Below, piece after piece: positions 20,351-60,417 of a stretch of DNA of 64,000 nt. Every line of letters starts with the position of its first letter. Position 1 is the stretch's first letter. Below the pieces are notes generated by a model. The model was not told where the DNA came from and did no database searches. It worked only from the letters and a program-made list of their open reading frames with translations. The DNA comes from Isoetes taiwanensis (taxonomy: Eukaryota > Streptophyta > Lycopodiopsida > Isoetales > Isoetaceae), in NCBI GenBank assembly GCA_021234155.1, contig JAJEKV010000025.1, positions 14,998,390 to 15,062,389 of the forward strand. Direction: 5' to 3'. Both the position numbers and the translations under genes were made by a program.

Positions 20351-21212
20351 TTAGCGGGAACACCATATTTGAAGCATGGCCTCTTGCGCCCTTGTACTAG
20401 TACTAGAATAATATTTGGCAACCCAGGGGTGTGCCAAAATTTGCTGCACAGATATCCTTTCCTCCGGATCAGGCTGCAACATCGCCAAAACAAGGCTCTT
20501 TGCTTCCTCTGACACCAACCCAACTGGCCAATGCAAGTGTGAGGCAGCCAAATCCTCGCCATGAAGCAGTTCTTCGTGAATTTGCGCAGTTTCTAGACTT
20601 GAGAAGTGATCATTCCCAGTAAGCACCTCATACAGGATCAAACCCAGATCCCATATGTCTATCTCTGTGGAATAATATCCCTGCACAACCTCTGGAGCGA
20701 AATATCTTGGTGTTCCGACTCTGGATGTAAAACTGGGGAGCAGAACCTGAAAAACGATCCGATATGCCGAAATCTGAAACCCTAACATCATAGGGCTTTG
20801 CTGCTGAGGTCACAAGAACGTTGCCTGGCTTCAGATCCCGGTGGATGATACCCTTTTGATGAAGATCCTGTATAGCTAGAGCAAGATTTCGAATAAGAAG
20901 AGCCGCTTCCTTTTCGCATAGCCTGCCTTTCTTGACGATTACATCAAGCAAGCTACATTCGCACAATTCCATGATCAAGTGCCAGAATCCCTCGTCTTTG
21001 ATTACTTCGTGTATATGCACTATGCCAGGGCTGCTGGCTAATTTCTGCATGATCTCCATTTCCTTGATCGGCTGCTCTGTGTCTCCTACCCAGATGATTT
21101 TGCAAGCAAACTCTTTCTTACCTCCTCTTTTACTTCTGCAGAGAAAAACCGTAGCTTGGCCACCCTCGCCGATTTCCTTAAGCATATCATAGCTCTCGTC
21201 GGATGTTGGCAC
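20351..21212 (-). pseudogene. Ser/Thr protein kinase (CAMK/CDPK-like catalytic domain), one frameshift
   Basis: The first frame (21,212-20,628) carries the Gly loop IGEGGQATVFL, the lysine motif FACKII, HRDLKPGN and DFGISDRF. The second frame (20,791-20,351) carries GTPRYFAPEVVQG, DIWDLGLILYEVLTG and the final subdomain QILAHPWV. All kinase subdomains are present, but the two halves are in different frames. They join within a run of five T just after DFGISDRF (about 20,750 on plus). No EF-hands follow, so it is a stand-alone kinase domain rather than a CDPK. The start MPTSDESYDM lies in sequence that is upstream non-coding DNA in the second copy (54.6-55.2 kb). The present start is therefore a by-product of a 254 bp difference. 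It is head-to-head with the PDX3-like gene. It could be functional only if the T-run is a sequence error. Confidence 0.85.
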
Positions 21213-21363
21213 GATCCCAAAGCCAACTATCCGGCCCGTTGATGCACAAACACATTAACATGCTCGCAGAAACAGAAGCAGAAAGTAACACAGGGTTGGT
21301 GGCATTTAGAATATGACGAATTCCTTGGAAACACAGGTATGGACGAATTCCTTGGAAACACAG
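21213..21363. promoter_or_regulatory. Divergent intergenic region between kinase and PDX3-like gene (copy A)
   Basis: About 150 bp separate the kinase start from the first recognisable PDX3-like exon. The arrangement is conserved in copy B, so a shared bidirectional promoter is plausible. The true 5' exon of the PDX3-like gene may lie here too. It includes a 28 bp tandem duplication around ACGAATTCCTTGGAAACACA. Confidence 0.3.
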
Positions 21364-44799: not shown

Positions 44800-45362
44800 T
44801 GTCGTGATGGTGTGGTGTGGTGTGGGGTGCGTTATGTCTATGGTGTCATGTGGGTGTGTGCATGTTAATGTATGATATGTGTGGATTCAATTTTATTTAT
44901 TCTCCCCCCTCACCCCACCACACCCCATCATCTATCCCACCACCATAGACTACCACCACATTTCGACCACCACATTACCACCACATGCACCACATTGTCC
45001 ATTACCACCACACCCACCATATCCCCACCACACCCCTCCACCACACTCCCACCACCACCACCACACTCAACCATGTACCCACACCACACCCTCCACAACC
45101 TCCACCACCACCACCACCACCACCCACTCCACCACACCACATCACACCACAATCCACACCACACCACCACCACCACACCCCCACCACACTCCACCACACC
45201 ATACCACACACCACCACCACCACCACCCACCCCACCACCACACTCCACCACACCACATCATGCCACCACACACCACAATACACTACCACCACCACCACCA
45301 CCACCCCACCACCACACCACACCCCACCACCACCACACACCACTCCACCACCACCACTCAAT
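44800..45362. repeat. CCA/CCACCA-rich low-complexity tract with flanking GTG-rich part
   Basis: From about 44,900 to 45,360 plus is almost only C and A with T (CCACCA, CACCAC units). Just before, 44,770-44,870 is GT-rich (GTGATGTGGTG). All long frames here (His/Pro/Thr on plus, Gly/Val/Trp on minus) come from simple sequence and I do not treat them as genes. The minus strand is rich in GGTGGTGG and could form G-quadruplexes. Confidence 0.92.
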
Positions 45363-45475
45363 TGTATGCCTTCAATTGAGTCTTTTCCAGCATCAATTAA
45401 ATATGTCCTTGCAACATTAGAACAAGTTATCATCATTGCTAATAGCATTTGGTTTTCAGTCAAACACACCACCAC

Positions 45476-45710
45476 GGCTCGGGATAGTCTTACCCTGGTT
45501 TCGGGGGATCAGGAGGAGAAAATACAGCCTCCTCCGGCATCCCCCGCCATCTCGGACGGAATCCATTTCAGGCCCTCCCCCTCCTCCTCCCCTTTTCCGT
45601 CTTGACACGCGTGAGGGGCCCGCAGAACTGGGTCGTCCACCCCGCCGACACATCCGGGCGTCAGGTGGTGTTCCCGCCTCCGGTATCACCAAAAAAACTA
45701 CACGGCGATT
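45476..45710 (+). repeat. Left terminal inverted repeat
   Basis: Matches 54,370-54,590 in reverse complement in three separate blocks over about 235 bp. Weaker GATCCCG-type similarity continues to about 45,920, so the true TIR may be 400 bp or more. Confidence 0.83.
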
Positions 45711-45719
45711 CCGCCCTCT

Positions 45720-45915
45720 GGAATCACCAACATGTGATCCCGGCCTCGGGATCACTATTCCTGGCCGATAGCGGTATCGAATCAGAGGTGGAGATCCCGC
45801 CTCGGGATCACCGGAACCCGGCCGTAATTCCTTCCTCGGGATCACCCACGATGCGGCCGATATCGGGCGATCCGATATCGACGCTAAGTATCCCCTCGGG
45901 ATCATCAGTGGGTTA
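45720..45915. repeat. GATCCCG palindrome array, left cluster
   Basis: Repeated GTGATCCCG, CCTCGGGATCAC and GATATCGGGCGATCCGATATC units. The same ATATCGG motif appears in the right arm (about 54,213). Confidence 0.75.
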
Positions 45916-46324
45916 GGGGACCATGCCGCCCTCAAGGGTTCAATACCCGGATGTGATTCCACGGAGGGGAGCGGAAACCGGACAACTTGGGTACATCGAC
46001 AACTAGGGAGACGCCACGTCGACGGTGGGGATTCTGGAGGAAGGGAATTCATTCTGGCAATGGCTAAGTCCGACATTTGTGCTCAAAGATCCTTTGCCCT
46101 TCAGAATCGCTTCTCGAGCGAAAGGGCATTTTTTGCCGAATCTCATTGAAGTCTTCATTTGCGCTTGACCCCGACGATGGGTTTAAGGTACAAGCGAGCT
46201 AGTGCCATCGGGAACTCGTTTTTTTTTGTATTCAAAGCTTATTTTAAGCCTTTACGTTTTTTGAGGATGGAGGAGTCGATTAACTTAACTGGAATGGTGC
46301 ATTAGAAGAGCTTCGGCACGGAAG

Positions 46325-46950
46325 ATGCCGGACTACTTCAAAGACATCGCAGACCTTGGATCTGACCAAGAGGTTCAATCCCCGAACAAAAAAAAATTAA
46401 GGGCAGAGGCCAGATTCAAAGGGGTTTCGCCAAAGAAGGTTTCCGGGTTGAGGGTTCGGTCGACGGTCAAGGGGAGGAGGAGGCAAGGAGAAAGAAAATG
46501 CAGAACTTGGGTGCCAAAAAGGCGCCGGGATCTGAGGGGAGGCCTTGAAAAGTAATGTGGGAATGCTTCAATGTAAATCCGGCCGAGGAATTGGCAGGTT
46601 CCGACCCTTTGAAAGATTACAGGTATGATCAGATTCTTCGAAGATGGCTTTGCCAAGTAGGTGACTGCACCAAAACCTACAGCAGGAAGGTGGAATTGGA
46701 GAATCACAGGTTCCGGGTGCATGCAATATATGAAAATTTTAGGGTTCCAGATCAAGGGGCCGAATTCCCAAAAATAAAGCTGAGGTCAGTGTAAGAGACT
46801 ATGGGAAGATCAGGGTGCAGAGGACTCTTGATCCCAAATTCAGCCACAATCTCACCAGGAAACTTCAAAGGCAAGTGCAGCAGCTGAACGTGTGGCAGAT
46901 GACCAAATCGACCTCGGCCTTCTCGATGAAACGAAAGGGAGCGAAGTTCA
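46325..46950 (+). pseudogene. C2H2 zinc-finger protein remnant inside the TIR element
   Basis: The first frame, 46,325-46,555, is basic and begins MPDYFKDIADLGSDQEVQ. Its TAA overlaps the ATG of a second frame (46,555-46,794) by two bases. The second frame holds WLCQVGDCTKTYSRKVELEN and HRFRVH: Cys-x4-Cys-x12-His-x4-His, a classical DNA-binding finger at 46,651-46,722. After its stop at 46,794 another frame continues basic, helix-like sequence (RKLQRQVQQLNVWQMTK). It is probably one gene broken by frameshifts. Its place just inside the left TIR and on the same strand as the Ulp1 remnant suggests that both come from one element gene. Confidence 0.6.
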
Positions 46951-47900
46951 TTAATCCAGCAGAGTAAGAAAGGAGGCCCAAGAACTTGAATTGCAGGAAG
47001 AGCAGATAAGGGAGGTCAAAGAAAAGATCAGGGGGCGGTATGACAATTTACCAGACAAGGAATTGTTTGGTGATTTGAGCGCCAATTGGATGATGACGAT
47101 GTGAGCGAAGAGTTAGAGGCTGCAAGGACCCGTGAATTTACCTCCCCCCTCCTCCCAAAACTCCGAGTTCTATTACCCCAGCCCGGCAGCGTGCCCCTAG
47201 GAAGCCGATGCGATTGTGGCAGAAGAGGGATTTTTGCCTCGATGGCCCGAACCATATTATTCACCAAGAAGAGGACAAGGAGCAAGAAAAGGAAGAAGAG
47301 CATGCATCTGAAGATGAATTGGCTCCCCTCCCCAGCAAGATCAAATTGTATTATTTGTATACACTCGAACCCTTATTCTTTGAGAATCTATTATCCTATG
47401 AGAGAGGGATCAGAAGGGATCTTTAGCAGTTCAAATTATCTTTAAATTACCCAATTGTGGTCGAGAGTCCTCTCTTGAAGGCGGGCAGCAAATCATCCGA
47501 TGTAGAATTCCATATCTCTGAGTTAGAAGCCGTCAAATTTACCACTATTGCAGGTGCCCCGGGTTCCGGGATTCGACCATCGATCGCTAGGGTTATTTTC
47601 TTGTAAGTGTAGCTCATGTAGGATCTATTTTTCCTTTGTAGCTAAATTCAGCATTTGCAGGTGCTTGCACACTCAATTCCATAAACGATGTCACCATGTC
47701 CTCCTCCACCCTCACGCTTTTGGCCTGTTCTAAATGGTACCAAACTAGGCCTGTGTGGTGCCTACGAGCAGTTTGTGAAGCTAATTCCGGGATCCCCCTT
47801 TGGTAAGGCCGTGTGGAAAATCTAGCATGCGCAGTTCTACTACATACCGGTTAATGCTAGATAAATTGGGTTTGGGAAGTGGAATTTTTATTGCATTTCT
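46951..47900 (+). other. Probable coding remnants between zinc finger and Ulp1
   Basis: Short plus frames occur: 47,208-47,426, Glu-rich (EEDKEQEKEEEHASEDELAP), and one at 47,470 with SSDVEFHISELEAVKF. They may be the N-terminal part of the Ulp1 gene, but I do not recognise a domain. Frames change several times. Confidence 0.35.
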
Positions 47901-47939
47901 AGTTCCGGGTTTGAATTGATTCGCGGCTTTGTCCTTGGT

Positions 47940-48300
47940 AAAGGCCATTGAGACTGTTCATTTTGGTGGTTGATCCTTTGGCATGCCAAACTCAATAAGC
48001 CTTGCCCCTTGCATGCATGTGCATTTCGATTCTTTGATCCCCTCCATGTCTAATACGCCGGTTCATCACTTTGTGAGTGTAACATTTGCTAACTATACAT
48101 TCATAGCCTATCTTCTAATGCATTGACTTGCAGGTTTTTAAGTGATGTATTTAAGAGGTGGAGGCACGAGGCATCAACATTGCATAATGCACCAGTAATC
48201 TTGATGGAAGCTCCACAGCAGCACAACCACCAGGATTGTGGCATCTATATTATTGGTTGTGTGCAGAAATTCATCAGAGAAATCTACAACAAGAAGACAG
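47940..48300 (+). pseudogene. Ulp1/SENP-like cysteine protease (C48) remnant
   Basis: Ulp1 proteases cut SUMO from targets; captured versions ride in several plant Mutator-like elements. In one frame at about 47,950-48,060 the sequence reads MHVHFDSLIPSMSNTP, matching the family's HxDS block with the catalytic Asp. After a CAG acceptor-like site at 48,135, the frame continues FLSDVFKRWRHEA, VILMEAPQQHNHQDCGIYII and FIREIY. PQQxNxxDCGIY holds the oxyanion Gln and the catalytic Cys (codon 48,237-48,239). The expected HW motif upstream is not intact, and stops interrupt. It is the same strand as the zinc finger and opposite to the transposase. Confidence 0.78.
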
Positions 48301-48779
48301 ATGTGAGTTATCATTGTCTTATCTTTTGTCTTTTTTGGTTAGCAAATTTATGTACTGTTCATTTATAATCTACTGTCTTCATTCAACCGGGACTGGTTTG
48401 CCAAAGAAGACATGGACAATTTGAGGACAGGGTTCAAGGTGATGCTGCAGAAGTTAAGTGACTGCGTAAATGCAGGAAAATCAACCTTCTACTTGCCCGA
48501 GGGTAGCAACCAATTCACACGGCCCTTGACCCGGTTGATGCTGAATGGTCCATGATCTGAACTCTCTCCATAACAGAAAAAAGGTTGTTCCTTATTCAAC
48601 ATGTAAATTGTCTGCTATGTTTGAAAATATGACAGTTTTTCAATGGTTAATTGAAGTGGGAACTTGCTTTCCTTTTTTCTTGTCTGGGTTCACTCTTGAC
48701 TTGTCAATCTGCATCCCATGGTACTCATTGAAAATCACTGAAACCATTCAAGCACTTCATAACAGATGAACTGAATTTG

Positions 48780-49345
48780 AACACCTCTGGGATCCCGAAA
48801 CTTGAATAGCTCTGGGATCCCGAAATTTGAACACCTCCAGGATCCCCAGGGAGCCAAATAATAAAACAACCATTAAAAAAGACAAACCACTAAAAAAGAC
48901 AAACCATTATTATGGTGATCCCGGAGGACGGGATCACCACAATAAGATTCCGTCCTCCGGGATCCCCAGACAGCCAAAAAAAAAAAGAATAGAATTACTT
49001 AGCCATTAAAATCACGTCCATGATTGGTGATCCCGAGGGCGGGATCAACAATGTGGTGATCGGGAGAAGCGGCATCAAGCTGTGTGAGTGATCCCGAGGC
49101 GGGATCACCACAAGAAGATTCCGCCAAAGGGATCACCACATAGCCAAAAAAAAAAGAATAGAATTACTTAGCCATTAAAAAATCCCGTCAGCGGTTGGTG
49201 ATCCCTAGGATCGAGGACGGATCATAATGGTGATCCCGGAGGGCGGCATCAACTGTGGTGATCGCCGATCACCACAAGGAGATTCCGATCCTCCGATCCC
49301 CCAAAGAAAAAAAAAAAATAGAATTACCTAGCCATTGAAAAAGTC
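48780..49345. repeat. GATCCCG palindrome array with 160-170 bp period
   Basis: Units contain GGTGATCCCG...CGGGATCACC foldbacks, a CCGTCCTCCGGGATC arm, and a spacer with a poly-A run and AATAGAATTACTTAGCC. The spacer recurs at about 48,975, 49,143 and 49,305. Three degenerate unit copies are seen. Confidence 0.88.
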
Positions 49346-50225
49346 GACTTTACCCTTAGAAATTGAAATCATATGGCTTAACGTTGTCAAGGGATAGTAC
49401 AAGGTTGATTCATGAGTCTATATATACCCTTGCCTTTTAGTTGTTCTTGGTAGAAAGTTAGTTGGTTTCAGTTGAGTTCAATAGCGATCGAAGTTCATTT
49501 GCTTTTTGTTCAAGCCAAGTGGCGGATGGTGAGGACCCGGATAACGGCTTGTTGAGAGTAAAGCCATCAATGCCCACGGTCTTGAGGATATTTCGTCCAC
49601 TTGAATGAAATTGGCGGGGAGGATGTGGGGGCTAGATCTCGCCTAACCCAATGAAACATCAAAACGTTCAAAAGTAAGCATGTTGTTGTCTTCCTTCATA
49701 TTCATGTTCTACTTTCATATTAATCTTTTCATGATCCCTCATGGTTCATGGGAGACCGTGGAGAATGGGGAATTGAGGAGAGACCCTAGACCTCATTTCG
49801 ACATTCGTGAGGCCAACCCATAGGGCATTGGTGGCTGAATTGAAGAGGTGTATTATCCAGGCAAGGGTTTGAAGTATTTGCTAGCTACGGACATTGTCTC
49901 GAAGGCAACACCCTAAAAGCCCGCCGAGGAAATGTATCTTTACCACGGAGGCTCGCAAAAGAAGGTTCCGATCAGGGGAAGTTCTAGAGGGTCTGATCCA
50001 TACCTATACGATATCTTGATCACATGATGTGGAGACTACCCTCGGCGATGCCGATGTAATGTTGAGGACGTCCAGTGAGAAGGCATAGCGATGCTTGATG
50101 TTGATTCAGAATGAGTCCGAATTAGAATGTCAATTTTAAGCCATTGTAACTTATGATCCATTTTGAAACATTCAACCATGCAAATGAATAGAATTAAATC
50201 ATTGAAACAATGGAAATAAATAGAC
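49346..50225 (+). other. Inner part of the TIR element, possible third gene
   Basis: A TATATATA box at about 49,421 is followed by open plus sequence (ADGEDPDNGLLRVKPSM) to a stop near 49,600. Another frame at about 49,745-49,860 reads TFVRPTHRALVAELKR. No domain is recognised. It may be a decayed gene of the element. Confidence 0.3.
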
Positions 50226-50229
50226 CATT

Positions 50230-50935
50230 AAAATTACTTGGGATCAGGAGGACAGGATCAATTGTCCAGTGATCCGGGAGAAGGATCTCTCGTATCCGGA
50301 GGGCCATTATCAATGTTGAGAGGGTGATCGGGGCCGGGATCACCAAGAATGTGATTCCTTCCTCCGGGATCCCTAGACGTCCGACAAATAAAAAAAAGAG
50401 ACCATGGCAAATACCTGACCATTAAAAAATCCCGTCCATGATTGGCGATCGAGGAGGAATCAATAGGTGATCGGAGGGCCGGTATCACCCATGCGGATGA
50501 TTAGTTCTCAGGATCCCGGACATTGACAAATAAAAAAGGAGACCATGGCAATTACATAACCAATTAAAATCCTAGAAAATCGGGTTCCTAATGGTGATCC
50601 CGGAGGTGGGGATCACCAACACGTGATCCCGTCCTCCGGGATCACCAGCTCGCGGACGGGAAAATTTTGAAAACCTTAGAACCTTTAGAGAAAAAAAATT
50701 AAAAAAGAATCCATCGGCCTGATGGTGATCCCGGAGGCGGGGATCACCAACACGTGATCCAGCCCTCCGGGATCACCAGCTCGCGGACGGAAAAAATTTG
50801 AAAACCTTAGAACCTTAGAACCTTAGTAGAGGAAAAATTAAAAAGAATTGCGTCCCGCGATGGTGATCGAGGGGAGATCTCACTGCGTGATCCCGCCTCT
50901 AAAGGGATCACGATATGACGGCAGGACATAGACAC
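50230..50935. repeat. GATCCCG palindrome array, second inner cluster
   Basis: About four degenerate units of the same family as 48,780-49,345, with spacers of the ACAAATAAAAAA...GACCATGGCAA type. Two near-identical units lie at about 50,585-50,660 and 50,712-50,790 (GTGATCCCGGAGG, then CACGTGATCC, then CTCCGGGATCACC). Confidence 0.87.
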
Positions 50936-52350
50936 TTTACCATTACATTACATTTAGTGATATGCATTGAAAGATTGAGAAATACAAGTTCTGAAAGTCA
51001 TGTTTCAGGCCCCAAAATTTGGGAATCATGGCGCCTTGCATGAAGCCTCCATCTCAACCTCCTTCCAACTCTTCCTTGCTTTCTTCACCTTTATGTTTTC
51101 CAAGTTCTATCACAGCTTCAGCCGTGACAAACTAGTACCACAATTGACCTCCAAGGTAAGCTCGTAGACTTGATATATTAGTGCTCGTGCAGCTATGTCA
51201 TCAATTTTCTCAAGTCTAAAGTGAGCTGCCTCGGAGAGAATCGAGTTGCAACTAAAATGTTAGGATCTTTTCAAGCCCTAGACATCACTCTAGTAATTCT
51301 GCCTCCAAGGAGGCTCCGAGTCTTCTTCAAGTCCACTTTGGCGCTTGTTTGCAAGGGAGACTCTTCCCCTCCATATTACCTCAAGCACCTCGGATCCCGG
51401 TCTCCACAACTCTCTTGCACGGGTCAGATGGCTTCGTGTGGTCCATGCCCCCACCTAGTGTCCCATATTGGGAACCCAACACCTGTAAAGAGATCTTGAT
51501 CCACAGTAATTGCCAAGCATTTGCATAACTTTTACCTGATGCTTACATAGATTACCCTTGGCTCCCAAGGGCAATCAGGCAACATGCCCAATTCTTGTGT
51601 GCTCGGCCCAGCAAAATCTGAGCCTGTCTAAGAGTGCGCTCGGTTTGCACTTCAGCCTCGCCCTCCCTCGAAGTTGGTAAATGTGACTTGTTCGTCGGGC
51701 AATATTCGAAGCGCCTCTAATTACTCTACTATTTGTTCTTGTGAGGTGTTTACTATAAATCCATGTTCCTTCATAGACCTAGAACATAGCTATATATCAA
51801 TCATTTGCAAGGTAAATTAGACTAGGTAGTGGTATATAAATGTTACCTCGTGTAAGCCATGTATGTGTCTCCACATTGTTAGTGAGAATGTAGAGCAACC
51901 AGTCAATTCTCCTTTCGGAAGTGCACGTTTACATATGCCTAGGACGCTTAACTTAAGGGCGACATGTCTCTATGGCGTATTGGTCTCTTGAGTTGGAGTG
52001 CATGTATATTCTTGTAGCCAATACCCATTCACATATGTTCTTAGTCCACTCCTTACTCATATGGGTAGGCAATTTAGGGTATTGAGGATACTTCCTCACC
52101 AACTCTTCCAACCTCTTGATAGCCTCTTTCTTAACAGACTTCCTGCGTACTCATGACCATACTCATTGTCCCCTCACGGGACCCTCTGCCTTGTACATTA
52201 TATTCCCGAGCTCCTTGAACATTTCATTTCTATGCACCTTACTCCTTACATTTTTACTTAGCCACTTAATCCGGGCTCTTCTCATGCCAAATGCATATTT
52301 GCATGAGCACGCTTGAGAAAACCTACAAGTGCACAATGTCAGTCCATAGT
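50936..52350 (-). other. Probable C-terminal region of the MULE transposase, not resolvable
   Basis: It lies directly downstream of the transposase core on minus. Pieces such as SLRKLMT and ALPKGELTGC are readable, but I see no clear SWIM zinc finger. The catalytic Glu region cannot be placed. No plus-strand gene is convincing here. Confidence 0.35.
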
Positions 52351-52351
52351 G

Positions 52352-53660
52352 TTAGAAAGTATGCAAGAAAGTATAAGAAGGGAGAAGGGTGACAAATTGC
52401 CAGGCATTACTTACATTTTTTACGGCCTTGAATTCAGCATCAGCATCGTCAGTAATGATGCAAGAAGGGTGCCAATCCGGATCATCCAGGCATAATGAAT
52501 CCTTTAGTGCTTTCAACCACTTAGTTATAGCCCTAGTTTTTTGAGAATTGGTTATGACATATGCCATTGGCAAGCCATTGCAATGGTCATCGAAGGCAAT
52601 GAGTGTAAAAAGATAGTACCTGCATAATAGAAACCAATAGCTCTCATTGGATCTAGAATTGAAATGCTATAGCCATTTTAAATGGACTATGGAAAAGATC
52701 TAGAATGGAAATGAACCCAAAGTAGTGTACCTCTTGTCATTAGTTTTGAAGGTTGCATCCATGCAAATGGCCCTATTCTTTCCAAACTTCAGCATTGCCT
52801 CTCTTTGGATTGGAGTCATCACTCCCAATTGGAACATGTCACCATGTTCATACAAGAACACAGACTCTAGATGTTGTTGCACCCACATGTTGATGCTAGT
52901 GGGAAGGTCTTCATGTAGCTTCCAAGTGTTTCTAACAACACTCTTCTCAATGTTGTAAACATCCCAGATCTTCAGCATGTCATCCCTACACATACTATCC
53001 TTGCCATGCATATCTAGTTTAAATCTCCACCTCTCCTCGTGCATGTTCATAACACTGGGGTGTGCCAATGCACTCCAGCTTTTCTCTAACCCATTCCCTC
53101 AATTTTTGAGAGATCCACGTGCTAGCTTGAATCGATACCTTTCTCGTCAACAAATTTACCACGGGAAGGCTCACCTTGGAGATTTCTATGCTCAAACCCA
53201 TAATAAGTAACTTGCGCAGCATTCCGAGAAGGTAGAGTTGCCTTAATGGTAAAATGGCATTGGCAGCCCCTACGCACACTCTCACCCCTCTTAACTCTTT
53301 TCCTCGTGTGCCAGTTGGCGTGGTCCATCAAGAACCACGCCGCTGTTCAAAGTCTTGTCTTGGGGACCATATGTGCACCAATACCTATTTTGAGTATTCA
53401 AAATTAGTGCATGAAAGTAGTGCATGTACATCTAAGAATTAAATATACTGCTACAATGTTTTTACTACAGAAACACCAGCAGTGAAACTAGAGGATAGGG
53501 TTTAGAAATACATACCTCTTCATAGTCAAATAAGAATCCCCTGTTGGCCTCTTTAGCACCCTCTCGGGATTGGAACTCCTTAAGTAGAAGCCGCGCGGTG
53601 CCACACAATTTCTTTGCTCTCCAAGAATGAAGTCTTCAATCCGGTTTTGTTGGGAAGTAG
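52352..53660 (-). pseudogene. Mutator-like (MULE) transposase remnant
   Basis: MULE transposases cut and paste the element. Reading minus 5' to 3': a FAR1-like stretch FQSREGAKEANRGFLFDYEE (about 53,590-53,515); RRGCQCHFTIKATLP and VTYYGFEHRN (53,260-53,200), a zinc-binding N-terminal piece; and MHEERWRFKLDMHGKDSMCR. Then come LGVMTPIQREAMLKFGKNRA and ICMDATFKTNDKRY (52,765-52,715) with the first catalytic Asp. After an intron-like gap, PMAYVITNSQKTRAITKWL and CIITDDADAEFKAVKN (52,570-52,425) carry the second catalytic Asp. Frameshifts separate the parts. It is the largest gene of the TIR element and is convergent with the zinc-finger/Ulp1 remnants. Confidence 0.85.
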
Positions 53661-54089
53661 AGTCCGGACAAAGCATTTCTCCACCTCCCATCTGAGTGGA
53701 ACTTGATGCTCTTCGGGGAAACGGTGTAGGTTGCCGGGTCTAAAATGCCATTAGGGGGTGACTCACATGTATTTCAGCACCTTGTTGGGAATGGCGAGAA
53801 AGGGAGCTCGATATACGTTCTTACCTCCTAAAAAAATAATCTTAAGCGTATAAATACCCGCTATCTTCTCCTCCAGCCCCCAAACGCCCATAGCTGCCGT
53901 GCCACTTCGAACATCCGTCTGTGCATATGCGCGAGCGCCAGAAATTCTCGAAGACGAATGTGGGATCCCGGAGTGGTTCCGACATCCTGTGTGTGTCCGT
54001 GATCTCAATGGTTGGTCCGGTAATGGTGGGCATCTTCAAAACCGGGCCGCGACGACAACTACATCGCCGCCACCACGATGCCATGCATA

Positions 54090-54590
54090 AAATACGGGGA
54101 TCCCAGAGGCGGGATCGCCTCATCCTCGGGCCACGCAAAGGTGATCCCAGAGGGCTGCCATCAAAGGCCTCCGGATCCCAGGCCGGGATATCCCGGGCGT
54201 ATATCTAAGGCCGATATCGGGCGAAGCGATGGCGACCCGAGGAGGGGATCAGGGGTCGGGATTCGGGATCTTGGAGGAGGGATTCACCACGGTCGTGATA
54301 TCGGAAGGCCATATCGCCACGGCATGGGGATCCCGCAGGCCGGATCGTGTTGGTGATTCCTGACGGGCGGGATCGTCGGGGTGGTACTTTTATGGTGATA
54401 CCGAGTATGGGAACACCCACCGGCGACCCGGTCGTGGCTGGAAGCCGACGTCGATTAAAAGTGTGGCCCCTCACGCGCCAAGACGGTGAAATGGAGGGTT
54501 CGAACGGTTCCGCCGAGCCTGGTGGTGACACCGGAGGACGGTATTTTTACTTCCGGGATCCCCGAAACCAGGGTAAGGCTATCCTGAGCC
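54090..54590. repeat. Right terminal inverted repeat and subterminal GATCCCG cluster
   Basis: 54,370-54,590 pairs with the left end. 54,090-54,370 has repeated GGGATCCC/GGCGGGATCG and GATATCGG motifs, parallel to 45,720-45,915. The last base before host-like sequence is 54,590. Confidence 0.83.
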
Positions 54591-55097
54591 CTGAGGTCAC
54601 AAGAACGTTGCCTGGCTTTAAATCCCAGTGGATGATACCCTTTTGATGAAGATCCTGTATAGCTAGAGCAAGATTTCGAATAAGAAGAGCCGCTTCCTTT
54701 TCACATAGCCGGCCTTTCTTGACCATTACATAAACAAGCTACATTCGCACAATTCCATGATCAAGTGCCAGAATCCCTCGTCTTTGATTACTTCATGTAT
54801 ATGCACTATGCCAGGGCTGCTGGCTAATTTTTACATGATCTCCATTTCCTTGATCGGCTCTGTGTCTCCTACCCAGATGATTTTGCAAGCAAACTCTTTC
54901 TTACCTCCTCTTTTACTTCTGCAGAGAAAAACCATAGCTTGGCCACCGCTGCCGATTTCCTTAAGCATATCATAGCTCTCCAAAAGATTGGGAAATAAAG
55001 CAGAGTAATTGTAGTTGAGAAGCTCTTCATCTGTCTCCTGCGTCTCCATCTCCATACTCAGAATTCTGTAATGCCAACACAATGCAAATGCAGACAT
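54591..55097 (-). pseudogene. Protein kinase gene, copy B, truncated by the TIR element
   Basis: The frame from 55,097 reads MSAFALCWHYRILSMEME, then LLESYDMLKEIGSGGQAMVF, FACKIIWVGDTEPIKEMEIM and a stop. Homology to copy A continues in shifted frames through GIVHIHEVIKDEGFWHLIM to LPGNVLVTS-type sequence at 54,600. The catalytic loop survives, but DFG, APE and the whole C-lobe are missing, because sequence similarity stops at 54,591, the first base outside the TIR. Its N-terminus differs from copy A and may show the original start. A codon deletion (Gln before PIKEME) and frame lesions make it non-functional. Confidence 0.85.
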
Positions 55098-55374
55098 TCT
55101 TATACCCCTGTAGTTGTCTCTGACTCTGCACTTTCCGTGTTTTCTAAAGTATCAGTTCTAAAATATCAGTTCTGACTCTGCACTTTCCGTGTTCTAAAAT
55201 ATCGGGAAAAAGCCAAGATATTTGTTTGCTGTCCGTCCGATGTTAGCACGATCCCAAAGCCAACTATCCGGCCCGTTGATGCACAAACACATTAACATGC
55301 TCGCAGAAACAGAAGCAGAAAGTACACACAGGGTTGGTGGCATTTAGAATATGACGAATTCCTTGGAAACACAG
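55098..55374. promoter_or_regulatory. Divergent intergenic region (copy B)
   Basis: Counterpart of 21,213-21,363, longer by the 254 bp missing in copy A. It contains a local duplication of the TCTGACTCTGCACTTTCCGT type at about 55,116-55,195. Promoter function is inferred only from the head-to-head arrangement. Confidence 0.3.
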
Positions 55375-56812: not shown

Positions 56813-59166
56813 CTATGTACCCTGCATCACAAATACAACAATTTTATGAGAGATTCTGTCATCTACATTTGACTTTGCATGAAAGACTTACCCAGCGATC
56901 AAGTGCACCTTCAAATTGTGACTCTTCTTCATCGTGAACTGTAAAAATTGCATCATTCTCTGGCAACTACAAAAGACAAAAATAAATCAAAGATTGATAC
57001 CAAATTCATTTCAATGGCATGCCAATTGAAGCAAACCTTATCCATCTCCTCCTTAACATTGCATGATGAATTTCTGTCATAATCCTCTCTATGGTTGACA
57101 CCTCCCTCAACATTTCCATGCATCTCCAATAGAGGCAAGCCTTGTCTCGATCTAAGCCTATTTCTTGCTATTAGTCTCCTCTGCTTTGCCTCCATATTCA
57201 AGGGTCTTTGCTGCCCAAAAATTTCAGCCACACGAGACTTACCTTGAGGGTATAATTGATGTCTAAGCCTCCTGGTTGATGCCTCAAGCTCCATATGTGC
57301 CTTCTTATTTGCCTCTCTTTCTTCTCTCCTCTCATGTGCCCTCTTCATGGCTTCGATCTTTTCAGCTTTCTTTCTTTGTTGCTCCATCTTCTTGGTGGCA
57401 ATACGTTCATACCTCAATCTAATTTCCAAATCTCGTCTTGCCTTTTCCTTTATTAATAAATGACAAAATTCATCACTTGTGACATGCACTTTTCCTCTTA
57501 GATCAGGGGCTATCATTCTATTGCCTTCCATGTTTAATGCTTGACGGATTGTGGGCTGAGATAAATTAGGGAATGCTGAGCTCGTTGCCAAAAGAATGGG
57601 TCTTCCCTCTTGCATTTGTAGGGCTGCTGCAGATGGACCAGCCATGCATGTGGTACTAGTATGCTCATGACTGCCCATATTCAGGTCATTTGGAATTGGT
57701 CCTTCTCCTAGCATTTGCCCATGCATTTGTGGGGCTGCTATTGATGGGCCAACAATGAATATGTCATTATTTGGCTCTTGCTTGGCCATATCCATACCGA
57801 TATTGCCCTCTTGCCTCATAGGTGTGTCAATCCAAGCTTGAGTCTTGATTGGATGGTATTTAATATAATCATTATGAATGGGCTTGGCCTCAATGGCTTC
57901 ATCATCATTAGACTGTTTTTTATCAACAAATGCACAATCTTCCTCCTCAAGGGCCTGATTGTGAATGGGGTCATCCTCATCAAGTGGCTGATTCACCGCA
58001 TTATACTTTTGAAACTTGGTTGCTACAGCAAGAGGTGTTACTTTCATATGCACAAATGGCCAAATTCCAGTAGCTCTAAAACCTGAAATGATGTTTAATG
58101 GGGTAAGTGACTCTGTGGCTGCCTCGGAAATCATAGCAGCAATGTCTTCTCTTTTTGGCTCGACCTTGCCTCTCCCCAACATGTATCTTGCTCTAAGTTT
58201 TCTAAATGCAATCTTGAAAGGGCCAAAACACGATACATCAAGCGGCTGTAATGCATGGGATGTATGTGCAGGTAAAATGGCAAAGTGAAGTCCCCTTTCT
58301 TTTGCTGCAAGAATGACCTCAAGGTCTACGTGACTCTTGTGCCCATCCATGATAAGCAAATGTGGTTGTTCTGGACTGACACCTCCAGGTACCCTCTTGC
58401 TGAAATGGTCCAGCCATGAGTGAAATAGTTGGCTAGTCATCCAAGCCTGGGGTTGGACAGCCATGATAGCTCCCTCCTCACATCTAGCAATGCAGTCATC
58501 CCTTAGCCTAGCCCTTTTGAAAATATAAAAGCTTGGAAGTTTATGTCCCTCAGCATTGACACATACCAAAGTGGTGACCCATTCGGTGTTTTGCATGACC
58601 ACCTCATGCACATTTCTCACTCCCCTTTGTGCCAAAATCTTCATGCCACTTAACTTACCAGCTTGAATACCTATTTCATCTGCATTCCAGATTCTAGAAG
58701 GTGGAAAATTGAACTGCATGTAAAGTTCATGTAAAGTAACATACCAATACCTCAAATTGCTCTCATTCATTGCCTTGGCTCGGGACACTTCTAGTGTTTC
58801 TATGCTTCTCAAAGACACATTAGGATGTCGACCCTTAAACAAACGCCACCATTTGTATCCTGGGACACCAGAACCACATAGTTCGCCTGCTCTCTCCCTA
58901 AGTTCATCTAAAGTTACTGCAAGACCTCTTTGAGCTCTATCTAATGCCCATTCTTCAAGTTCCTTTTCCTGGTCAGAAGTCAATACTGTTGGACTGTTTT
59001 GTTGCTTGTGAGTAGTTCTACCATAAAGCCAATCCCTTATTGAAGATTCAGGAATCCCAAATCTTCTACTAGCCTCTCTTATGGAAATCAAATTATCACT
59101 CACCATTTCAACTGCATCCATCATTTGCTGCTCAGTCCACTTCCCTCGTCCACGTGCAGCTACCAT
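56813..59166 (-). CDS. Pogo/Tigger-like (CENP-B-type) DDE transposase, apparently intact
   Basis: It would cut and insert a Tc1/mariner-pogo type transposon. The first exon, 59,166-57,037, is open for 710 codons from MVAARGRGKW. Residues 9-50 are a psq-type helix-turn-helix (SIREASRRFGIPESSIRDW) and about 60-125 a CENP-B-type DNA-binding domain (WWRLFKGRHPNVSLR). The catalytic domain follows: D163 in WNADEIG, D274 in LLIMDGHKSH and D310 in HALQPLDVSCFGPFK, a DD35D triad. A Glu/Lys/Arg-rich coiled coil lies at about 600-650. GT/AG sites suggest a 70-base intron (57,036-56,967), a 75-base exon with codons LPENDAIFTVHDEEESQFEG and on (56,966-56,892), and a second 70-base intron. The last exon would be two codons and a stop (56,821-56,813). 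Without splicing the frame reads on to 56,953. The long frame, unlike its neighbours, has no lesion. Confidence 0.9.
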
Positions 59167-60417
59167 GGTGGTTGCTCTTCACATGTTCAGCAAAAGACAT
59201 AGAATTTTTGATATACTGGGTTCCTCCTGCAGTCTCGATTCTCGCTGGGTCTAGAACTGCAGACAAGATAAATCAGACTGGTTAAGTAACAGATGCAAGA
59301 TTTAACAACCAAAGCTAACCTGCATTTTTCCTTCATAGCACTAACGCAAGCAAGCTGCTGAATATTTAAGAAAAATATCAGAAAGTTACAATTCTAGGTA
59401 ATTCCATTTTACAACCTGTTGCAAAAGAAACGAGAAGGAGAACTTCGAACTCGTACAGTGGTGTTGACAGTGCCCTTTTTACATTTCTTCTGAGGCTGAA
59501 TTGTACCATAAGACTTTCACACTCTCAGATTTCATTCTCTCCACATACATGTTTACGGTTTCCGAGCAAACCAGTTGATCCTCAGTAAAGAAGGCGAAAA
59601 TTTACAGAACAAAAACATTTGCAATATGAAGGAAAACTCCCCCATTCTACCACATATTCAGTAGGATTGGCTCGTTTAGCCTTGCAGATGAGCAAGTCTT
59701 CTCTGTTAGGCTGGTCGCCAAACTTCTGCCTAAACAGTTGGTTGGGTTAAGGTGAGATCAACGTCTTCAACAGGATAATTTCTATATCGAAGCATCTGTA
59801 TAAGTAACAGTTTGTTGGTTGATGTAAATTCAGTTGCTCTGCCCATCAAACTGTTGCGACATAGACAAGCTTTTGCTCTGGGTTCACACGGATTTTGCTG
59901 GCCATATATACATGTATCCAGTCAGTCACTTCCCGCCCATCCAATCCGACATCCTATTACAGTCACCAGTGAGTGTCGTCACGACAGCGCAGCGCCAGCA
60001 AATATTGTGTTTTTGATTATCAGAAAAATAAATTCTCCATCCACCAGTAAATTGTAAATGCCATAAGAATTAAGAATACCCGTGCATTAAATGCTATTAA
60101 GAATTAAGAATACCATTACATTAAATACTTGTAAGAAAGAGCACTAGTCACTTCTATTGTGTGAAATAAACTAGCCTAGCTTGGTTCGGGAAATTTTTTA
60201 GCCTACATCATTAAGTTTCCTAGAGTTTTGAACATGTCCGGCAAGCTATAAAGCTATTCTTTAAAATTGGTGGAAAAAGGAAAAACTCTTAATTATAGTG
60301 TGAAATTTTCGTGCTATTATTTTGCCTATGTTTTAATTTCAGAAAGTAATCGGACACATGGGCTTAAATCTCGGTATTTCCCAAACCAAATAAATTAGTA
60401 TTTTAAACATCCACTAG

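Follow-up and report, generated by a model that had tools for sequence, protein, structure and literature searches.

The 64,000-nucleotide window of Isoetes taiwanensis DNA analysed here (contig JAJEKV010000025.1) contains, at positions 45476–54590, an old, decayed copy of a terminal-inverted-repeat (TIR) transposon of the Mutator type from this lycophyte. Four LEAFY matches in the genome agree with a plant host. Comparison with other copies in the genome identifies its two genes: that of a Mutator-like element (MULE) transposase and a single spliced gene, present here as a pseudogene, in which a C2H2-like finger is predicted to be joined to a Ulp1 protease. Tandem copies of a conserved palindrome, GATCCC-N7-GGGATC, are found in the TIRs and in the interval that separates the two gene 3' ends. 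Among MULEs that carry Ulp1, this combination of a fused finger with a conserved palindrome, in a seed-free plant, appears to be new: no MULE with a finger–Ulp1 fusion was found in the literature searched, which covered few subscription papers and had Repbase outside its scope. A term search of the Isoetes sinensis genome paper for MULE or Mutator gave no mention (PMC10541799). Copies and loci are cited below by our handles (C or L with a number). The parts of the window copy are as follows.

45476–54590, no strand: whole element, 9,115 bp, decayed, with remnants of both genes; its TIR ends recur in other copies
45476–45960, plus strand: left TIR with subterminal palindromes (45669–45846)
46267–48555, plus strand: finger–Ulp1 gene, a pseudogene here, running from the ATG that opens the conserved MEES sequence to the stop codon following LMLNGP, located by tblastn with the C1099, C1030 and C1076 exons
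46651–46722, plus strand: C2H2-type finger, C-x4-C-x12-H-x4-H, within exon 1 (Pfam zf-C2H2, E = 0.0026, 18.5 bits, cut-off 25.2)
47603–47608, plus strand: GTAAGT, the conserved 5' splice donor that closes the finger exon
48134–48302, plus strand: Ulp1 (C48) exon with the catalytic Cys motif QQHNHQDCG (the window piece scores 19.2 bits with PF02902, cut-off 20.7)
48777–49300, no strand: central array A, with palindromes at 48916–49252, 3' of the finger–Ulp1 gene; RNA fold z score −11.1
50241–50910, no strand: central array B, 3' of the MULE gene
51035–53431, minus strand: MULE transposase gene with a DDE core and a SWIM-like C-terminus, broken (PF10551 match, stops)
54174–54590, minus strand: right TIR; palindromes at ~54098–54417

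The element and its copies

The ends of the element had been described as inverted repeats matching in at least three blocks at similar depth, and they do so: the outer arms (45473–45525 and 54541–54593) are 81% complementary over 53 bp, and the inner blocks match at 73% (45656–45696 and 54388–54428) and 74% (45872–45902 and 54190–54220). Both boundaries of the original prediction were also upheld. On the left the terminus GGCTC... begins at 45476, as it does in the other copies. On the right a kinase gene elsewhere in the window (20804–21197) aligns to 54591–54980 at 95%, with further matches beyond at 84–89%; since this paralogue runs on where the element begins, the right end is exactly 54590.

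Each 500-bp end was used as a query against the genome (1,658,258,908 bases in 1110 contigs), the check that had been proposed with the prediction. The searches gave 49 and 52 rows, of which 81 main rows were used and 20 short second pieces were dropped. Element ends lie at at least 76 distinct places and form at least 22 inward-facing pairs, the window's own included (both lower bounds, with 40 candidates scored per search). The pairs span 1.0–21.5 kb in 21 of the 22 cases; the other, at 53.9 kb, is possibly a chance pair. We fetched 25 loci besides the window for comparison. Both ends could be placed in 17 copies, and 12 of these are flanked by a 9-bp target duplication, a length within the 8–11 bp typical of the Mutator superfamily; allowing one-base offsets, nine duplications are perfect and three have one mismatch. 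The duplication is absent from C920, C1034, C1100, C1053a and the window copy, and C1099, C667 and C57 were left out of this scoring. A crossed-flank control reached at most one mismatch in only 2 of 272 cases, both of which must be crosses of C1037 with C907a: these two copies have common flanks and a common target duplication, a single insertion duplicated onto two contigs, so that the 12 target duplications represent 11 independent insertions. The TIR termini have 0–3 mismatches over 23 bp at both ends in 16 of the 17 copies, and three further copies are without one recognisable TIR end. Chance repeats and a pairing of two unrelated ends are ruled out by the paired copies with target duplications. 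C1037 and C907a (L009/L010 and L015/L016) also each contain a third, nested TIR.

The other copies with these ends have the same boundaries and the same cargo in the same order; the outcome named as counting against the prediction, the two ends occurring independently or full copies with other boundaries that lack Ulp1 and the finger, did not appear. C1045 and C907b are derivatives with neither the second gene nor central arrays, and they retain the TIR palindromes.

The finger–Ulp1 gene

The finger and the Ulp1 protease had been predicted as two items of plus-strand cargo. Both pieces are real, but they are not two genes: the splice donor and the reading frame rule this out, and a gene model shows one spliced gene that is predicted to join a C2H2-like finger to a C48 protease of the ULP2/SENP7 type. 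A GT donor follows directly after exon 1 at 16 of 17 loci (GTAAGT at 14, GTATGT at one and GTGAGT at one) and is lost at the remaining one. In the C1037 model, exons 2–5 are joined by GT–AG in a single frame with one internal stop near the end; PF02902 matches residues 63–200, containing HWSL, HFDS and QDCG, with 35.6 bits (cut-off 20.7), and is above its cut-off in C1076 as well. The best PDB match of the C1037 protease is SENP7 (E = 0.0007), with the His part aligning as a separate, very weak segment. Gene models were attempted in ten copies and found all anchors in four, of which only C1037 is in frame; the frame is lost in C1099, C1038 and C920, and the last anchor of C920 is wrong. In C1099, exon 1 falls within an open frame of 493 residues, and several further exon 1 loci are stop-free (a genome search gave 98 matches, with 87 of 1314 candidates scored).

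The C2H2 spacing C-x2-4-C-x12-H-x3-5-H fits five of the six finger sequences compared, and the finger helix SRK(V/M)(E/D)LEN is present in all six. The Pfam matches of five exon-1 proteins do not include DUF1985, and only zf-C2H2 was seen in exon 1. The finger-exon alignment, used as a profile, matched nothing in the PDB, and a single-sequence search gave only a coiled coil at chance level.

Transposase and selection on the element proteins

The transposase predicted on the minus strand is borne out by PF10551, which scores 43.0 bits (cut-off 27.6) when the two window exons are joined at GT–AG. SWIM (PF04434) scores 16.9 bits in a related copy, against a cut-off of 19.6; MULEs commonly, although not universally, have a SWIM finger on the C-terminal side of the DDE domain. 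The motifs CMDATF, TDDAD and AIEAWH are read in copies, and we take these to hold the catalytic D, D and E.

Codon comparisons between copies show the signature of purifying selection on both element proteins. For exon 1, C1030 and C1099 differ over 390 codons by 85, 75 and 139 changes at the first, second and third codon positions, with a ratio of nonsynonymous to synonymous substitution rates (dN/dS) of 0.30; five stretches from C1030 against C1099 and C1076 give 0.17–0.39. Across 11 between-family pairs, exon 1 has 0.71–0.80 synonymous differences per site and an amino-acid identity of 43–52%. The MULE exons M2 and M3 give dN/dS values of 0.10–0.40 in 15 comparisons with dS above 0.2, the window copy being excluded. 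Rather than a recent capture, the finger–Ulp1 gene is integral to this family; a one-off gene capture is ruled out by the cargo common to the copies together with the selection.

C1030 is itself a mosaic (L027, 8401–9633 versus 1312–2049): its finger exon is distant from those of the other copies (dS ~0.7–1.6), whereas its first transposase exon is near those of C920, C1032, C1099 and C112 (dS 0.01–0.04).

Palindrome arrays

Palindrome arrays had been expected at both ends and inside the element, and the counts agree: GGGATC occurs 32 times within it against 7 in the other 54.9 kb of the window, and GATCCC 29 times against 16. Exact matches in the genome number 439 for the 21-mer and 918 for the 19-mer, with none for the reversed control of either. 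Allowing up to three mismatches, 12 copies contain 314 units, of which 145 lie close to the element ends and the other 169 elsewhere.

Both genes are present at 20 of the 26 loci and are convergent at all 20; palindromes (2–25 units) occupy the gap between the convergent 3' ends at 18 of these. A palindrome unit falls inside an exon match at none of the 26 loci. Over the 18 loci the distance from the finger–Ulp1 match to the start of the array is 283–470 bp (17 bp in C1030), and that from the transposase match is 126–325 bp (880 bp in C920). The other six loci lack one or both genes: among the four in which central units were told apart from terminal ones, C1109 and C913 keep central units and C1045 and C907b do not; C1044b and C82 are the remaining two. 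Seen from the palindrome sites, a scored finger–Ulp1 locus is in range of 25 of the 100 sites listed (of 439), with 24 on the 3' side; four of these links, at ~7–14 kb, possibly reach neighbours' loci. This count uses the 98 matches less 12 that were second pieces of loci already represented.

The arrays of four copies have ten 8-mers in common, of which nine lie within the palindrome, against a mean of 0.005 under simple base shuffles. The array period differs between copies (~29, 28+112 or 37.5 bp) and the spacers are replaced. In C1034b the central units all have one orientation, and the palindrome is retained. This retention of the palindrome across families with saturated synonymous sites, while spacers and period turned over, is the best evidence that selection has probably acted on the palindrome itself.

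Relation to known systems

The nearest comparison is with the VANDAL elements and KI-MULEs of Arabidopsis. In the available text of the papers cited, VANC binds tandem motif repeats in VANDAL21, leading to a loss of methylation (PMC5735166, PMC10398659); VANC genes with Ulp1 are termed KIU, and the precise role of the Ulp1 protease in these MULEs is stated as unknown (PMC13317346). From the same text, the likenesses are a MULE transposase with a second gene containing Ulp1, in reverse orientation in KI-MULEs (PMC5735166, PMC10398659, PMC13317346, PMC2528002), a short motif arrayed in the element's own noncoding DNA and, in VANDAL, a 9-bp target duplication (PMC6446971). The quillwort element differs in its C2H2-like finger joined to Ulp1, its palindromic motif kept between families and its lycophyte host. 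VANC/KIU elements are characterised by DUF1985 and by TIRs that are degenerate or missing, whereas in the quillwort element DUF1985 was not found and the TIRs are intact. Because both DUF1985 and TIR loss were tested and neither was seen, we do not regard the quillwort element as a member of VANC/KIU, although by analogy it may work like one.

Other systems share fewer features. The ULP1 MULEs of grapevine, melon and rice have a ULP1-like region in either orientation; a finger fusion and palindrome arrays are not described in the portion of the source available (PMC2528002). The Spectre MULEs of arthropods have TIRs and a separate C2H2 zinc-finger open reading frame, but the available text does not mention Ulp1 and gives an 8-bp target duplication and TIRs of 74–76 bp (PMC6446971). 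Ginger1 is a DNA transposon with an Ulp1 protease domain; according to the sections available, this is fused to the transposase, which is integrase-like and not of the MULE type (PMC2836005).

A possible role for the palindromes

That families so deeply diverged have conserved the palindrome suggests that the finger or the transposase may bind it, as the original prediction had proposed. We consider evenly poised the reading that these elements are a clade of MULEs whose finger–SUMO protease acts on their own palindromes, giving an anti-silencing of the VANC/KIU kind. The transposase would act on the TIRs, and an element-encoded protein, most likely finger–Ulp1 as a dimer, would bind the palindrome arrays. 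Bound finger–Ulp1 would bring the SUMO protease to the element's own chromatin, where it could strip SUMO from silencing factors; the element genes would then be expressed and the TIRs would stay accessible. This would work like the VANC/KIU anti-silencing of the eudicot VANDAL elements, with the finger replacing DUF1985. A further step, which we put forward tentatively and hold to be somewhat doubtful, is that the lycophyte clade independently evolved a sequence-targeted SUMO protease de-silencing its own copies through the palindrome, in which case Ulp1 anti-silencing would have arisen at least twice and SUMO removal would be its working step.

Several observations weigh against this picture. 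Three unassigned palindrome-site clusters were examined: C57 and C549 contain both genes, yet C913 (L044) has an element end and both central arrays with no finger–Ulp1 match in the 9.5 kb read. The only in-frame protease model, C1037, comes from a copy with stops in exon 1. zf-C2H2 is below the Pfam gathering cut-off in each protein scanned (15–20 bits against 25.2 where matched), and the C1038 finger has lost its second Cys and has no Pfam score. Close copies give dN/dS values of ~0.6–1.8; values near or above 1 between such copies are what decay after insertion would produce. At C1074 there is no unit in the gap, and at C1101 a remnant of a decayed transposase is found on the far side of the array. 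A CpG-decay test did not find the palindromes spared: TG or CA stands at 33 of 286 CpG positions of central units, versus a C-to-T-type change of 3–8% at CpG in exons. Matched changes in both arms of a palindrome occur at 2 of 25 positions, so that strict symmetry is not enforced.

Other explanations account for some of the same data. The palindromes might be transposase binding sites, like the subterminal repeats of other DNA transposons, with the central arrays as spill-over or as a means of titrating transposase and with finger–Ulp1 acting elsewhere, for example in de-SUMOylating the transposase. This would fit the palindromes in both TIRs of 12 copies and their retention in C1045 and C907b, and in most pairs the finger exon is less well conserved than those of the transposase; we nonetheless think it rather unlikely, as it leaves unexplained both the placement of arrays between the gene 3' ends and the rebuilding of arrays with new spacers in each family. 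That the arrays act as RNA, either as hairpins that end or insulate the convergent transcripts or as a double-stranded source of small RNA, we judge to be clearly improbable. Their position shortly past both gene matches suits such a role, as do the strong RNA folds in the window and in C1034b (z score −5.2); against it stand the same palindromes in the TIRs, the rarity of matched arm changes and the one-way central units of C1034b, which keeps the palindrome all the same and has the less extreme fold. It is very unlikely, in our view, that the arrays are passive minisatellites seeded from a TIR and that the finger–Ulp1 gene is a passenger. Array copy number and period do vary widely, and the available text of PMC2528002 reports ULP capture by MULEs and CACTAs in grapevine; however, the palindrome has been kept where synonymous sites are saturated and spacers replaced, exon 1 is under purifying selection and its splice donor is conserved.

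In this one element family of a seed-free plant, a SUMO protease occurs together with a putative DNA-binding finger and a possible binding site. This bears on why MULEs keep carrying a SUMO protease and extends the question beyond flowering plants. In the text available, 'SPF-like' SUMO proteases are reported from bryophytes, lycophytes and ferns alone (PMC11371177); the quillwort element suggests that they may be worth checking for a transposon origin.

The window copy and its flanks

The window copy is a pseudogene with both genes broken: tblastn with the exons of related copies shows 14 stops in the finger-exon alignment and seven in the best SWIM-region alignment. Its flanks are as follows.

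45362–45475, no strand: unrelated dispersed repeat with many genome copies at 92–96%
54591–55290, minus strand: kinase gene copy truncated at the right end of the element (DNA match to 20804–21197 and tblastn)

The sequences adjoining the two ends do not form a target duplication (CACCACCAC versus CTGAGGTCA). As the right end is exact at the kinase gene and an unrelated dispersed repeat forms the left flank, the copy has probably lost one original flank through deletion or through recombination between two insertions. The kinase gene at 20354–21254 (minus strand) has a second copy that starts at 54591 and is interrupted by the element; the remainder of this cut-off copy has no match elsewhere within the window. 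The kinase gene has at least 40 copies (93–100%), clustered on eight contigs, among the best 40 of 200 candidates scored.

An Rfam scan of the window gave no match. A CCA/CAC-rich minisatellite (45004–45357) lies immediately to the left of the element, and an open frame of 741 amino acids at 56956–59178 on the minus strand encodes a pogo/Tc5-like transposase (DDE_1, 81.6 bits).

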